DNA of 64,000 nucleotides, taken from NCBI RefSeq assembly GCF_000002865.3, contig NW_001865087.1, positions 68,009 through 132,008 on the forward strand. The letters run 5' to 3'. The translations under genes and the position numbers were made by a program. This stretch comes from Monosiga brevicollis MX1 (lineage: Eukaryota; Opisthokonta; Choanoflagellata; Craspedida; Salpingoecidae). Positions 20,665-38,897 of this stretch are shown piece by piece. The notes beneath the pieces were generated by a model. That model ran no database searches. It was given only the letters and a program-made list of their open reading frames with translations, and was not told the DNA's origin. Each line of letters begins with the position of its first letter. Position 1 is the stretch's first letter.

Positions 20665-23600
20665 TCAGGCGTTGGTGTCACCAGACGTTACATCAACGCC
20701 CTGCTTGATGGCCATACGAACCGCCGCGATGTCATCAAGCGAGAGCTGCAGGTTGAACAGTGCGTCGCCGGAATGAGTGAGCGGGCCATGCATCTAGAAC
20801 AGAGCGATAGGAAATCATCCATGCATCACAAAAAGGCGCGTACACACCTGTTTAACGGCGAGGCGGATGGGCTCGGTGCCAAAACTGACAAATTTGGTCA
20901 CAATTTCCTTTTGAGACAGACCATACACCGACTCGCCCATCATGCTCACAATCACATCGCCCACGACCAAACCGGCGGCCTCGGCTGCACCACCGGCATC
21001 CAACTGTGTAACAGCGACTGGGGCACTTCCTGCTCATGCATGAGTTTCACACATTCAGCATACATGAGCAAACAGTGCGAATTCCCGGTCATGAGGTCGG
21101 CATGGGTCGGCGCACTAATGATATCGAAGCCACCAGGAATGGTTAGGAAGAGCGGTCCGCACAGACATACCTTTGATCACAAAGCCAAACCCTGAAGGGC
21201 CCTTTTTGAGAGTGATTTGGCGCAAGTCGGTATGCAAATCCGGAGTCTAAGGCGATTCAATCAAAGAAGCAATTCAGGACACCATGGGACAGGGGTGAGC
21301 AGGCCACAAGGGCTGGCAGTTGGTAATTGGATGCAACCCACACACGCCTAAACACATACCTGCAGGGTCTTCATGGCTGCCTGTGCCTGGCGCTTGGCGA
21401 CGGAAATCTCGTCCTCACCAGACGCAGCAGCGGCGCCCGTGGCTGGGACGTTGTCACCCCATACTTGACGTTGTCGCTCCACGGGAGCCCCTGGACTTGA
21501 CAACGCCTGCTCAATGGCTTCTCCTCGCATGTAGCCATTGCTCTTCACGCCGCCGTGCAGCGCATTAGCCCCTTCGCTGCCCAGGAGATTTTTGCGCTGC
21601 TGCCGCTGCGCCTCGATGCGACGAATCTCCTCTAGCTCCCGCTGCTGCTGCATCGAAAGTTGGCCGGGTGGGGCGCCCGGTCCACCCTGTGGGGCTGGCG
21701 CACCACGACCGAGATGCCCGTACATGCCTTGCGGTGGTGGATGCATGGGTGGGCCTTGCCTCAGGTTGGGAAAGGATCCCGGTGGCGGTTGATAGTGATA
21801 ACGACCACGGCCACCGTGAGGAGGGTACTGCGCACCGTACATCCCTGGTGGCGGTCCATAACCCGGACCGCCACCATACATCTGCTGCTGCTGTTGCAGA
21901 TAGGCAGCGTAGTAGGGGTCGTAGCCAGCGGGCCCATACTGCCCATACCCGCCCGGTGGTGGTCCATAGCCTTGAGGGCCATAGCCCGGGGGCGGTGGGC
22001 CATAGCCCTGGTAAGGCGCCCCGCCCGGATAGCCACCAAGTCCGCGACCGCGAGCCATGCCAGGTGGGATAGCGCGTACTTGTGGCCCGACACCACGCCC
22101 AGCCATCATGTGTTGTGGATGGTGTGGTTGCTGCTGCTGTTGTTGTTGCGTGTACGGGGGTGGGCCTCCTTGCTGCTGTGGGAACCCATACTGTTGTTGC
22201 TGTGGATGTGGCTGTGGCTGTTGTTGCTGCCAAAAAGGAGATGCACAGGTGAGCGGCAGTAGCAGGGCTTATTCGAGCAGCGGCGCGAGTTTGCAGGCAG
22301 GGGGGGCAAAGCCGGGGTGTCACGTACTGGGCCGGGGTTCGCCCGGGGAAGGAGCGGGGGTGGTGTTTGGGCCGCGGCTTGTTCACGAATGATACGGTCA
22401 TTCATGTATTCACCGTCATCCATATCTACAGCAGATGAATGGCAAGGCGGAAGTGAGACAAGTCTGTCGCGGGTGAACGCCGGCCCTACTCTTATGCGGG
22501 TAGCAGATAGCACACGTACTGAGTTTAGCTGCTGCTGCTGCGATGGCATCTTCATTGACATAGTTGCCATTGCTGCTGGGGCCCTCGTCGTCGTGGTCAG
22601 CATCCTGGGCAGGGGTAGACGCTGTCTCTGTGGGGGCGGGTGCTTGAGCACCATCCGCTTCAGAAGCGGCAAACCCAAAGCCATCATCACCATCGCCATC
22701 GGAAGCTGGGGCGGGCATGGGCGGGGCGCCGGTGTTGACTGCGTTCTTATCCGGTAACGCTTCTGCGGGCGGCTGGCCTGGAAGGTGTGGAAGGTCTTTG
22801 CCATGCGCGGAAGCGAGGGTACTCAGCTCCTGCTGATGGGCCTGCTGCTGATTCATGTTCTCACGTAGGATGCGATCGTTCATGTAATCATCATCGCCAC
22901 GAGGTAAGATGCCCGCTGCGGCTTGAGCTGCCACGTCCTCGTTGACGTATTCATGCCCATCATCTTCAGGCTCAGCAGGGCAGCCAGCATTGATGGCACG
23001 AGCTGGGGGCTCGGGCATGGCTTCCTCTGCTTCGGAAGAGGGTGCGGGAGCCGCTTTCACAACAGGCTCGGTTGAAGCATCCGCGGCAGGTGAAGCATCC
23101 GCGGCAGGTGGAGCGTCCGCAACAGGTGGAGCGTCCGCGGTGGGCTGGTCGCCTGTGACAGGGTGGTCGCCCGTACCAGGCACGGGCGTGGGGACGGATG
23201 GCTCGGCAGGTTGGGCGGAGGTGGGCGGAGCGCGCGCGGCGGGATCAAAGGAGGGCTGTGTAAAGCGAGGAAAAATGGTTTCTTGTGCCGGATTGGCGTG
23301 CTGGCGTAGGCGGGAGCCGACGTTGACCGCAGGCAAACGCTCATCCGGGTTCAAACACCAGCACTGCTGTAAAACCTAGAGTCGCGGCCCAGAGAGGGCG
23401 AGATGAGCAAAGAGTGGTTTGCACGGGCCGGATCATTGCGTAGCTAAGCAGGCTTGCCAACCTCGTATGTGCCCGCAGGCATGCCCTCGAGCGGCGGTAG
23501 GTAGTGGCCCTGGCGCAACCATTCGAGCATTTTGTTCAAAGGCACGCTAGCCCAAGGCTTGACGCCAAAAGCAAAGATTTCTGGGTAGGAGTGTCGAGAT

Positions 23601-24900
23601 GATGGCGGGTGCGAGCCATGAGCGATGGGCGTGAGCGTGGGCTGAAACGCGACAAAAGCGTTCGCATCATGGAGGCAAGGGCTCACCCCAGCAGGCGACG
23701 CCGAGGCTGTAGACATCGCTGTCGGGCATGGGACGGGAGCCTTCAAAGAGCTCCGGGGGCAGCCAGCGAAGGGGCTGGTTCGAGAGGGTAACATCATCAT
23801 TGTGAAAGTCCTCGTAATCACTCTCGGAGACGGCCATGCCCACGCCAAAGAGACTGAGTTTGAGCTGAAATTGAGAGGTCACAAAGGCGCTACGAGCCCC
23901 AATGTCTTGAATCAGGACATCCCGGGTATGCAGGAAGGCGACGGCCTCGGCTAGCTGACAGCACAGGTTGAGTTGGTGCTGCAGTGAAAGCTGAGGCTCA
24001 TCCTCGTCGTCGGCGATCCGCGAAGAGCGGAGCACGTGGAGCAGGGTGCCCTTGGAACAGGCCTCCATGAGGACAAAGGTTGGAGCTCTGCGGTTGGCAA
24101 GGAATGATTGGATACGAGAGCCCAGGCGTGGGCAAGGATGAGGGTGAGGGCTCAGAGAAAAGGCAGGCGCTTGGAGGATGCGTGGAGACTCTTATGAACA
24201 GACGTGGAAAAATGGGCGGCCACGAGCTGGAGGACGTTGGGGTGCTCCAGCTGGCGGAGGAGCAGGGCGGTCTTTTTAAAGCCGTCGGCCAGATCGGGAA
24301 GGAGAGAAATTTCCGAGCCAAACATGAGAACGGAGCGTGGAAAGGCACCACCGGCCAAGCCCCGAGCCTGCGAGGTAACGTGAGATTCACATGGGACCGG
24401 GGTGGGTTAGCTGCGGCGCTGGGCAGCGCGGCGGGCGGGCATAAGGTGCTCAAGGGAGAGGGGTGGGGTGCGCCAGGCAATGATACCTCGGCTTCAGAAA
24501 CGGTACCAAAACGACCACAGCCAAGTTCGTTGGTGACGTTGACGGCAGATCGTTCAACGGAGAGGTCGCTGAACTCAGCAAGGTCTTCGGTGCCGGTTTC
24601 CATGGGAATGTAGCTGGCGTTGACGGCTTGTTGGAGCACGTTGGCACCGGTGTTCTTATTGGCGGATTTGGACGCCTTGGAGCCATCATCATCAAAGCTG
24701 CGGCCAGCGCAGACGGCACCAATCACAACCCCGGCGACGAGGACAGCCACGGCCCATACCATGACATTTTCAGAGTCTGAGGGCGCAGAGGCGTCAGCGG
24801 AAGTGGGAGCGTTGTCCGACTGAGGCTGGTAGGGTGGCGGAAGAGCGGTGGCGGAGGCCAGGAGCAGGCAGAAAAAGGGGAGCACCAGCCGCATCGCCAT
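20665..24900 (-). CDS. receptor tyrosine pseudokinase with YVNE/YMND motifs and C-terminal PDZ domain
   Basis: Ten exons, minus strand: 24900-24487, 24367-24204, 24087-23687, 23580-23462, 23375-22520, 22425-22328, 22226-21360, 21246-21171, 21029-20848, 20793-20665; 3,306 bases, 1,101 residues. Order: signal peptide (MAMRLVLPFFCLLLASATA), ectodomain of only about 25 residues, membrane helix about 46-66, YIPM at 97-100, kinase-like domain about 125-390. The P-loop is intact (GCGRFGTV), but the beta3 lysine is Phe154 (VLMF), the catalytic loop reads IQDIGARS, and DFG is LFG (Leu272). The PLRWLPPELFEG, EIFAFGVKPW and QQCW segments mark it as tyrosine-kinase family. Loss of these residues predicts no phosphotransfer. 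The tail has Tyr509 and Tyr638 in YVNED and Tyr530 and Tyr658 in YMNDR. A Gly/Pro/Gln/Tyr-rich region follows, then a PDZ domain at about 979-1057 (GFGFVIKG, AAGLVVGDVIVSMMGESV). The start at 24900 was chosen because it begins the signal peptide; an in-frame Met lies upstream. Confidence 0.85.
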
Positions 24901-28675: not shown

Positions 28676-30758
<2,083 letters not shown>

Positions 30759-35954: not shown

Positions 35955-38897
35955 CTATGCGCGCTGGGGGCTGGATTGCCGGCTCTTGCTCAACATGTGG
36001 TTGATAACGTCGGTGGCGTAGGACAGGCGGGCCACGAGGACATCAATGCTGGCATGCTTGCTGCGGCTGATCTCATCGAGGGTGTAAACGCGCGTTTCGC
36101 CCTCCGTGTCGATGAAGGCAACTGTATCGCGTGGACCGTTGACCACGACCTTGGTATGATCAAAAAAGTTGATTTGGACAATGCCAATGTTGAGGCGAAA
36201 CACAATGGCATGCTTGGTGCGAAGCCACTTCTTCACAAATGGCATGTCCGTCGTCTGCGCCGAGGCCTTGGCCAGTGCCGCGGGACCCTAATGGAGTTTC
36301 AACAAAAACCCCCGGTGCGTGAGAGTGTGCCGACGGGCGATTATGATCGCAACAGGATCAGACCAAAGCATGTGCCCCTGGGGGCAAGGAGTTCGCCGCA
36401 AGCCAGGCCGAAGTAATTGTCTTACGTCCTGCAAGTTGTCACGCATGTAATCGCGAAAGTACTTGAGAAGAGCGATCTTCTTGGTCATGTCATCGGGGAA
36501 AGAATCCAGGGTCATGGCCGTCGTGGCTCCGCCCTTGCGCTCACGATTTGTAAACTCAACGTGACTAAAAACGTAAAACGCGAGGCAAAGACGGGCGGCA
36601 GGAGCAAGGATATTAGGGAATTGGTGCAAAACGAGTCTGTTGCAGGTCTGTGTGGCCTCGGCATGATGCAAAACGGAACGCACTGGAGATCGGAGGAGAG
36701 CACCATCTTTGTGTTATCGTTGAAGAGGACGCCAACACTGTCGTCAGAGAGCTGGTAGCCCAAGCCATACTTGTACGAGTAATCGATCCATTTGGTCACG
36801 GCATAGCCGGCCTTGGCCTCGGGGGCAGGGGCCTCCATGGGCTCGCGATACGAGGCGGCAGCTTGCAGGGCCGTCACTTGTGAAAGGCGCGTGTAAAGGG
36901 CCTGCAGGTTGTCGTTTGCAGCTCGCGGGGTGGTCGAGGGAGTTGTGGTCGAAGTGGCGGCGACAGATGCTACGCGGTGTGTTTGAGTGGGTGCAACGGT
37001 CTTGGGGTGGGGATCGGTGCTGCGCATGTCGATGACCTTTGGCGCAGGCTTGCTGATATGGCGGGCATCCTCGCGGTTGGTGTTGAGTGATCCAAGGGGG
37101 GCGCGGCCGCTAGGGACGAGGCTCTCGGCATGAATCTTAGCACCCACTGAAGTGGTGGTGACGGGGTTCTCCAAGTTGGTGTGAGCCGAGCCGGGCTGGG
37201 CGCGGTAGGTGGCCGCGGGGCGCACCTGGCCAGGGATGCCGGCAAAGTCTGGAGTCATGTGCAGGGCCTTGATGGGCATGCGCTGAGGGATGTACGCGCT
37301 GCCTGCCAAGAAGGGATGGCGCATAATCTCCTCGCAGTTGGGTCGGCACTTGGGGTCACGGTGCAGCAACATGCGAATCAGGTCGACAGCCTCGGGGCTG
37401 ATCTGAAGGGTAGAAGGAAAGCTGTAGTCGTTGCGCTTAATTTTGCTGTACGTAGTCTTGATGTCACGTGTTTCAAAGGGAGGGCGGCCCACGATCATGG
37501 TGTAGAGGATGCAGCCGATGGACCAAATGTCCACCTCAAAGCTGTGTCCCGAGTCCTTGCCCTCGAGAATCTCGGGGGCAATGTAGTTGGGGGTACCGCA
37601 GAGCGTGCGTTTGCGTTCGCCATCATGGGTCAGGGCGGTGGCCAGGCCAAAGTCGCCGACCTTGACCTGCATCTCTTCGTTGAGGAAGAGGTTGCCCAGC
37701 TTGAGGTCACGGTGGATGACTCGGCGTGCGTGCATGTGGGCTGTGGCTTCGACAATCTATGCGGAGCGGTGTCCACCACGGAAAGGAAATCAGTTTGATG
37801 AAGAACGCAAGCAAAGGGGGAGTGAGCAGAGTGGCAACGGCTGTGTGGACACACCTGAAGCAGGAACCAGCGAGCCTCGATTTCCGACATGCCACGGCGG
37901 CGCTTGTGCAGCTCCATCATTGACTGAAATGAAGAAAAAGGTCGTGAGGGAACTCAGCACGCGCCGGTGTGTGTGTGGGGAACGATGGACATATATGACC
38001 AGTGCATTTTCGCAGGCAGCGTAACGGGCAAGAACGAACGAGGATGTGTCGAAGGAGCATACCTGGTTGGAGCAGATCTCGAGCAAGATATAGACGTTGT
38101 GTTCATCTTCAAAGTAGCTGTGGAAGCCGACAATGTACTTGTGGGTGAGCGAGCGGTGAATCTGGATTTCGCTTTTCAGCTAGATGGGGCGGGCAGACCG
38201 ATGGTGAGAATGGCCGTGCACAGTCGATGTGGGAAGCGCGACGGTGTTATTTTTCTCGAGGACTGCACGATGCGCTTGCATGGTGGTCCTTTTTCCTCCC
38301 TCCCTCTCTTTTATTGCGTTTATTTCCTGGCGTGAATGCTGTTTGCGACGGGCAGGGCAGGCGCACTTTTTCTTTGGCACGGTGCTTGCTGAGGGAGGAT
38401 TTGGCCACGATCTTGCCGGCATAGACACGCTTGGTCATGCTATCGGTGAGCTTGTAGCATTGGGCAAAGCCACCCTGAAGAAAACCGGACGAAACGGACC
38501 AAGGGCATGAGAGTTGCATTTGCAGCGCGGCGTGCAAAGCGCACGAGAAGCAGGTAGGGCAGCGGCAGGCACGAGTCTGTTTGGCTTCCTCTGGCTTCTC
38601 AAGTGACTGAGTTGATGTGTTTGAATGTAGATGTATTGCCCTTGAGCAGCCGCTGTAGGCGCGGCTGGGCCTTTGCAACCTGTTGGTTGTTTCGATGGGT
38701 GCTGGAGGGAGGAAGAGAGGGGAACACACCTTGCCAAGGAAGCTACCGCGAATGTACTTTGCGCCGGTGGCGGAATCCTCAATGATGGAAGGGATGCTTG
38801 ACGATGAAAAGCGGGAGCTGGAGCTGGAGGCTCGGCTTCCGGTGGTCACGGGTCGTCGCCCGTAGGCCGCGCTGCGCGCGGGCATGGCAGTCGCCAT
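35955..38897 (-). CDS. PLK1: Polo-like kinase (PLK1 type)
   Basis: Seven exons, minus strand: 38897-38730, 38474-38367, 38179-38063, 37923-37855, 37756-36684, 36564-36426, 36287-35955; 2,007 bases, 668 residues. The kinase domain has the Polo P-loop GSFLGKGGFAQCY, HRDLKLGNLFL, DFGLA and the activation-loop KRTLCGTPNYIAPE with the conserved activating Thr. A low-complexity linker precedes polo box 1 (VTKWIDYSYKYGLGYQLSD) and polo box 2 (KKWLRTKHAIVFRL, QINFFDHTKVVV). The Trp of polo box 1 and the His/Lys pair of polo box 2, which bind phosphopeptide in human PLK1, are kept, so primed-substrate docking should work. PLK1 drives mitotic entry, spindle assembly and cytokinesis. The start at 38897 is the first in-frame Met. 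The gene is in the reverse orientation to its ABCG neighbour. Confidence 0.93.

Follow-up and report, generated by a model that had tools for sequence, protein, structure and literature searches.

According to published descriptions, transmembrane adaptors consist of a short extracellular domain, one helix and a long tail with several tyrosine motifs (PMC2803307), and LAT, with an ectodomain of two residues, carries three YXNX sites for Grb2, whose SH2 domain is stated, for LAT, to recognise Y-x-N (PMC3291652). In theory, trivalent LAT with Grb2-SOS1-Grb2 bridges forms gel-like clusters, which bivalent LAT does not (PMC3291652). In the choanoflagellate Monosiga brevicollis, three of the nine RTKB kinases are described as devoid of important catalytic residues and as possible scaffolds, and the RM2 units of the RTKB2 tail are phosphorylated and then bind an SH2 domain (PMC3584944). 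In the oomycete Phytophthora infestans, a C-terminal PDZ domain has been described on a TKL-group kinase (PITG_11566; PMC3019232), and the passages on kinases in a paper on Monosiga PDZ domains name no kinase carrying one (PMC8512817). Inactive choanoflagellate receptor kinases, docking tails and PDZ-bearing kinases are already known separately. We describe here a gene on the minus strand of a stretch of 64,000 nucleotides from M. brevicollis MX1 (contig NW_001865087.1, positions 68,009 to 132,008, hereafter the window), whose predicted product joins a short ectodomain, one membrane helix, a tyrosine-pseudokinase domain, four Y-x-N tyrosines and a PDZ domain, the new content being the predicted Grb2-type docking array and a matching Grb2 in the same genome. 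We favour, with some reserve, the reading that this protein would be a kinase-derived transmembrane adaptor, working like LAT, phosphorylated by other kinases and tethered through its PDZ domain.

Receptor-shaped architecture and loss of catalytic residues

Pfam recovered both the kinase-like and the PDZ domain named in the initial annotation of this DNA (E 1.1e-43 and 7.6e-9, respectively), and the gene model and hydropathy bore out the remainder of the architecture which it had described, that is a signal peptide, an ectodomain of about 25 residues, one helix and a long tail. The kinase-like domain belongs to the tyrosine-kinase group, with the above match to PF07714 against 2.2e-16 for PF00069, and the best 60 of 1420 solved-structure matches were all tyrosine kinases or tyrosine pseudokinases. 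Among these 60, the best single-domain match was PTK7 (6vg3, 112 bits), with the insulin-receptor-related receptor, a Src-Abl ancestor and ROR2 close behind, and the table was headed by an EGFR entry in which two stretches each reached about 67 bits; the PTK7 match is not evidence for PTK7 orthology.

Residues needed for the binding of adenosine triphosphate (ATP) and Mg, namely the beta3 Lys, the alphaC Glu, the catalytic-loop Asn and the DFG Asp, are lost, and these losses are spread over exons 2 and 3. The beta3 Lys is replaced by Phe154 if VLMF (151-154) is read against VAVK, and MAFFT puts the Lys column on S150; its loss is independent of the alignment because there is no Lys between the glycine loop (127-132) and K169. 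The alphaC Glu has become T171, the catalytic-loop Asn S259, and DFG reads L272-F-G (272-274). Phe154 and LFG had both been proposed initially and were confirmed here. The change of HRD to IQD (I252-Q253-D254) likewise stood as a substitution, H and R being lost, but the catalytic Asp, D254, is itself retained, a point which the initial annotation omitted. Also kept are the glycine loop (GCGRFG), the APE Glu, the F-helix Asp and the late Arg. In a control of 16 aligned rows from the same genome (19 names picked out of 30 kinase loci, less three for which no frame was available), the beta3 Lys was found in 13 of 14 readable rows, the alphaC Glu in 13 of 14, the catalytic Asp and the Asn each in 15 of 16, and the DFG Asp in all 16, every exception belonging to a single row, L047. 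In the kinase tree (12 rows), the pseudokinase domain has a branch length of 6.94, where the median for end branches is 0.85, as would be expected once selection for catalysis has ceased. The same genome showed no recent duplicate, the best-scoring other match of exon 3 being only 32% identical.

The N-terminal start, MAMRLVLPFFCLLLASATA, looks by eye like a signal peptide and is followed by about 25 outside residues, and a single membrane helix (Kyte-Doolittle) precedes the kinase domain, as in a receptor tyrosine kinase. The ligand-binding ectodomain of such a receptor is missing from these 25 or so residues, and the search for a hidden one gave no Pfam match in the 10 scanned of 15 upstream same-strand frames (at least 85 residues), and in the exon 1 frame no match exceeded the cut-off. 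This frame is open upstream, with an alternative start at about 25077 before another hydrophobic stretch, and the N-terminus is to be taken as provisional. The juxtamembrane Y97 (24612-24610, minus strand) reads YIPM, a YxxM form, which we take to be the type bound by PI3-kinase p85.

Predicted docking tail and Grb2 partner

Residues 385-690 contain four tyrosines only, all of them in Y-x-N, and none of 10000 shuffles of this stretch reached four. They form two duplicated pairs, the internal alignment scoring 87, where none of 2000 shuffles exceeded 53, with one gap of a single residue between the two tyrosines and another, of seven residues, before the first. Exon 7 holds many further tyrosines, which are not Y-x-N. 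Among the 32 tyrosines listed for the whole protein, the EEVYxxI-type context of the RTKB RM2 units was absent, the comparison covering this context rather than full RM2 sequences. A search with the tail motif, in which a single candidate was scored, matched only itself.

A Grb2 orthologue is found in the same genome as four ordered exons at C51:711766-712798, with 48, 52, 74 and 64% identity to human Grb2, the first 26 residues of the human query giving no match. Its SH2 and both SH3 domains are recognisable, the first SH3 in part, and the SH2 domain keeps the specificity Trp. In human Grb2, this Trp selects Asn at +2, and hence the pY-x-N choice. A homologue search with the joined exons returned Grb2 proteins, including that of Salpingoeca rosetta; among the best 120 of 322 matches, none was near-identical, the best-scoring homologue showing 64% identity over the whole query and the highest identity being 81% over 65% of it. 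SH2 matches occur in at least 114 places of the genome and RasGEF matches in at least 18. Among 30 SH2 loci examined of these 114 places, 22 alignments (two pairs of which are the same stretch in overlapping loci) gave one doubtful Trp of the Grb2 type (L078) and none convincing. Together, the sites and the retained Trp support the Grb2 orthologue as the predicted reader of the four Y-x-N sites, which is the pairing looked for in a LAT-type adaptor. Elsewhere, at C39:141170-143445, SH2 and RasGEF matches lie within 2.3 kilobases (kb) on the same strand; this possible SH2-RasGEF protein could couple phosphotyrosine to Ras without Grb2.

Gene model, PDZ domain and neighbouring kinases

The minus-strand model, from 24900 to 20665, comprises 10 exons and 1101 codons, with a stop at 20665 (Table 1). 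All nine introns, as initially drawn, are GT-AG, 54 to 141 bases long and consistent in phase at their junctions. In nine of the 10 exons, a codon-usage score trained on 16524 codons from kinase-matching frames of the same genome gave a positive value to the predicted frame alone, both other frames being negative. Introns 1-4 lie inside the kinase domain, matched by Pfam in one stretch, and intron 8 inside the PDZ match; splice 5 is independently supported because the second copy of the duplication crosses intron 5 while the first is uninterrupted. The donors of introns 6 (GTACGT) and 7 (GTATGT) are the hexamers of introns 5 and 8. On the best reading, the kinase-like and PDZ parts would form one gene, pending splices 6 and 7.

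The solved chain nearest to the PDZ domain is that of RGS3 (1whd, E 2.2e-7). Besides its GFGF loop, it shows a Gln within SQKEI (1037-1041), which we take, reading by eye, to sit where class I PDZ domains have His. The protein itself ends in DTNA, with T at -2 and a small last residue, and binding of the PDZ domain to its own end is possible but speculative. Among 13 PDZ matches, three were this gene and the other 10 in the genome were 2.1e-5 or weaker. When 150 listed of 154 kinase places, together with this gene, were set against 146 PDZ places, the gene was the sole same-strand kinase-PDZ pair with starts less than 5 kb apart, with 135 of 686 candidates scored for kinases and 150 of 197 for PDZ domains, such that split or unscored genes can be missed; the kinase exons of the gene itself were missing from the listed matches and were entered manually. 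One other kinase place (C56) has PDZ places about 9 kb downstream, perhaps in a separate gene. Only kinase and PDZ families exceeded the Pfam cut-off in the protein, with none of the SH3 and guanylate-kinase domains of a MAGUK of the CASK type.

Table 1. Coordinates of the gene and its features in the window (all on the minus strand).
Feature	Position	Residues	Details
Exon 1	24487..24900	1-138	Start, signal peptide, short ectodomain, membrane helix, juxtamembrane, glycine loop; donor gtatcatt; codon score +36.1
Signal peptide	24841..24900	about 1-20	Judged by eye; hydropathy windows starting at residues 1-3, 1.75-1.93
Membrane helix	24703..24765	46-66	Best Kyte-Doolittle window starts at residue 46, 2.73; G57-xxx-G61-xxx-A65; one boundary Cys64
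Tyrosine-pseudokinase domain	23328..24540	121-382	Exons 1-5; Pfam PF07714 (PK_Tyr_Ser-Thr), E 1.1e-43
Exon 2	24204..24367		F154 (24322-24320) replacing beta3 Lys; T171 replacing alphaC Glu
Exon 3	23687..24087		IQD 252-254 (23912-23904); S259; LFG 272-274 (23852-23844)
Exon 4	23462..23580		C-lobe; Pfam match runs unbroken across
Exon 5	22520..23375		C-lobe end and acidic Ala/Pro tail with Y509, Y530, Y638; codon score +40.7
Duplication copy 1	22845..22988	about 496-543	Uninterrupted
Y-x-N site 1	22947..22949	Y509	HEYVNED
Y-x-N site 2	22884..22886	Y530	DDYMNDR
Duplication copy 2	22367..22622	about 618-671	Split by intron 5
Y-x-N site 3	22560..22562	Y638	GNYVNED
Exon 6	22328..22425		Y658; codon score +4.1, other frames -4.6 and -10.1
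Y-x-N site 4	22406..22408	Y658	GEYMNDR
Exon 7	21360..22226		P/G/Y/Q-rich tail, then charged probable helix; 289-codon open frame; codon score -10.6
PDZ domain	20875..21219	983-1050	Exons 8-9; Pfam PF00595, E 7.6e-9
Exon 8	21171..21246		PDZ, GFGF loop at 992-995
Exon 9	20848..21029		PDZ; codon score +26.2
Exon 10	20665..20793		C-terminal end ...DTNA and stop

Other kinases were met in the window and in the genome. The window holds a PLK-like protein kinase, which has a POLO box match, at 36512-37756 (minus strand) and another, GSK3-like by eye, at 29628-30758 (plus strand). About 30 kinase matches (C9, C16, C17, C19, C28, C31, C48 and others) cover nearly the same part of the profile (about 12-203) and lie in open frames about 650-800 residues long; they look like a large single-exon kinase family. 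A further match, C7:86555-87166, lies in a stopless frame of 29192 residues, which may encode a giant protein in a single exon or may be an artefact caused by unread bases. Five receptor kinases (L024, L025, L027, L029 and L032) show by eye an HYR-like ectodomain, a kinase with intact motifs and a CAP-Gly-like end, some of them with Y-x-N tail tyrosines, and resemble the M. brevicollis RTKC family as it is described in PMC10263333; the reverse primer for RTKC8 found no exact match.

Interpretation and comparison with known systems

The initial annotation had proposed a protein with no catalysis and no room for a ligand domain, acting as a scaffold phosphorylated by other kinases, and this is supported, at the level of sequence, by the four Y-x-N tyrosines out of four and by a Grb2 orthologue that keeps its Trp. 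In such a scheme, a receptor tyrosine kinase would have lost its ligand-binding ectodomain and its catalysis, leaving a transmembrane adaptor. Another tyrosine kinase of this kinase-rich cell would phosphorylate the four sites, on which the Grb2 orthologue would dock via its SH2 domain and recruit partners, Ras exchange factors for example. At a valence that may reach four, several copies may become cross-linked by Grb2 complexes into branching clusters, as for LAT. The PDZ domain would bind the C-terminus of another protein and keep the platform at a particular membrane site, and the pseudokinase would serve as a surface for contacts with other proteins, perhaps with the very kinase that acts on the tail. 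More tentatively, as a possibility that we hold with less than even confidence, choanoflagellates may have made a LAT-like adaptor from a receptor tyrosine kinase, independently of the lymphocyte adaptors, by losing ectodomain and catalysis, gaining four Grb2 sites by duplication and adding a PDZ domain, with Grb2/Ras-GEF clustering at a PDZ-defined membrane site.

Several points weigh against the adaptor. The juxtamembrane CxxC of LAT is not present, Cys64 being single. Y-x-N is not specific to scaffolds, as such tyrosines occur in active receptor kinases encoded by this genome too, and other SH2 domains may read it as well. A third copy of the docking motif in exon 7 (YMRGEAI, Y916), which seemed likely by eye, was rejected, 1846 and 1747 of 2000 shuffles scoring as high. 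The gene model is predicted from genomic DNA, and its kinase and PDZ halves are united only through splices 6 and 7 (the joins of exons 6-7 and 7-8), for which the evidence consists of splice signals, phase and open frames. Exon 7, of low complexity, has a weak codon score, its negative value being nonetheless the best of its three frames; a synonymous-only score barely separates these frames (5.9, 5.2 and -83.0) and is a weak measure because intron frames reach +10.6. The kinase tree took 12 of the 17 aligned rows, five being left out, and the placement of so long a branch is unsure according to the tool's own warning. The orthologue searches found no orthologue, only 6 and 7 distant kinases, and, with the 8000 best word-sharing candidates scored in each, this is weak evidence of absence.

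Other explanations share part of this evidence. The kinase fold, dead but with its fold residues kept, the small-xxx-small motif of the membrane helix (G57, G61, A65) and the presence in the same genome of receptor kinases with intact motifs would suit a HER3-like pseudokinase co-receptor, pairing through helix and kinase fold with an active receptor kinase, activating it allosterically and becoming phosphorylated, the docking tail being secondary. We regard this as rather unlikely, since no sensing or pairing ectodomain was seen in the frames scanned upstream and in that of exon 1, and small-xxx-small motifs are common in membrane helices; it is moreover compatible with a scaffold rather than exclusive of it. 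It is also unlikely, in our view, that two neighbouring genes have been misjoined, one for the receptor-shaped pseudokinase, finishing with exon 5 or exon 6, and one for a PDZ protein rich in P/G/Y/Q, with its start in exon 7. Exon 6 can indeed be read for about 73 residues beyond its donor, to a stop at 22108, exon 7 offers in-frame ATGs at 22109 and 22106, and its codon score is weak; however, the duplication ties exon 6 to exon 5, the exon 6 donor gtacgt is that of intron 5, the phases agree over all junctions and the spacing between the two genes would be only about 220 bases. In addition, a stop stands right before the exon 8 acceptor in its frame, and therefore exon 8 must join an earlier exon.

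The same anatomy would also serve a PDZ-anchored sink capturing Grb2 or PDZ ligands and so damping receptor signalling, since a non-catalytic platform may compete as well as assemble; no feature of the sequence prefers damping over assembly, and we consider such a sink improbable. The intact GCGRFG loop and D254 could, lastly, point to an atypical nucleotide-binding or weakly active kinase using the kept HRD Asp and glycine loop. Loss of motifs does not prove loss of nucleotide binding, because EphB6, without canonical VAIK, HRD and DFG motifs, is reported to bind ATP (PMC7586955). In the present protein, the absence of Lys, alphaC Glu, Asn and DFG Asp removes the Lys-Glu pair as well as the two metal ligands, and we find this reading very improbable.

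The choanoflagellate tyrosine-kinase system is very large and its wiring mostly unknown, and the protein proposed here as an adaptor names a concrete candidate Grb2 partner. If this reading is true, it would show that a unicellular relative of animals can uncouple the output of a receptor from its catalysis, and that receptors can give rise to LAT-like adaptor platforms; should the ten exons indeed form one gene, a close animal relative would possess a receptor-derived signalling scaffold. No paper in the literature searched (title and start of abstract) describes a tyrosine-kinase-group domain, a membrane helix and a PDZ domain in one protein, listing in earlier Monosiga kinome surveys being still possible; this is consistent with, though no proof of, the initial statement that the architecture is not known from animals.

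PTK7, EphB6, EphA10 and HER3 share with this protein a tyrosine-kinase fold with broken catalytic motifs, and have large ligand-binding ectodomains. CASK, MAST and LIMK combine a kinase or kinase-like domain and PDZ in one chain and are not known to be single-pass receptors. Their kinase domains and that of PITG_11566 are of CaMK, AGC or TKL type, whereas the domain described here belongs to the tyrosine-kinase group; kinase and PDZ in one chain is the feature that PITG_11566 shares with it (PMC3019232). Eph receptors end in a PDZ-binding motif, while the present protein carries the PDZ domain itself (PMC7586955). Choanoflagellate RTKB receptors share the receptor tyrosine-kinase fold, members that are probably inactive and tail tyrosines for SH2 docking, but RTKB2 has a large ectodomain, RM2 units of about 80 residues and EEVYxxI-type sites, in contrast to the absent ectodomain, Y-x-N sites and PDZ domain found here (PMC3584944).

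A short ectodomain, one helix and a long multi-tyrosine tail place the protein in line with adaptors of the LAT type, the dead kinase between helix and tail and the PDZ domain being additions to that plan. To our knowledge, LAT, NTAL/LAB and LAX carry neither a kinase fold nor a PDZ domain. The likeness is one of function only, and no descent from the vertebrate family is claimed. LAT has a CxxC palmitoylation pair where the present protein has one Cys, and LAX, SIT and TRIM are also without CxxC (PMC2803307). As in the protein described here, LAT, NTAL/LAB and LAX each present a very short ectodomain, a single helix and a long tail with several Grb2-type sites (PMC2803307, PMC3291652).

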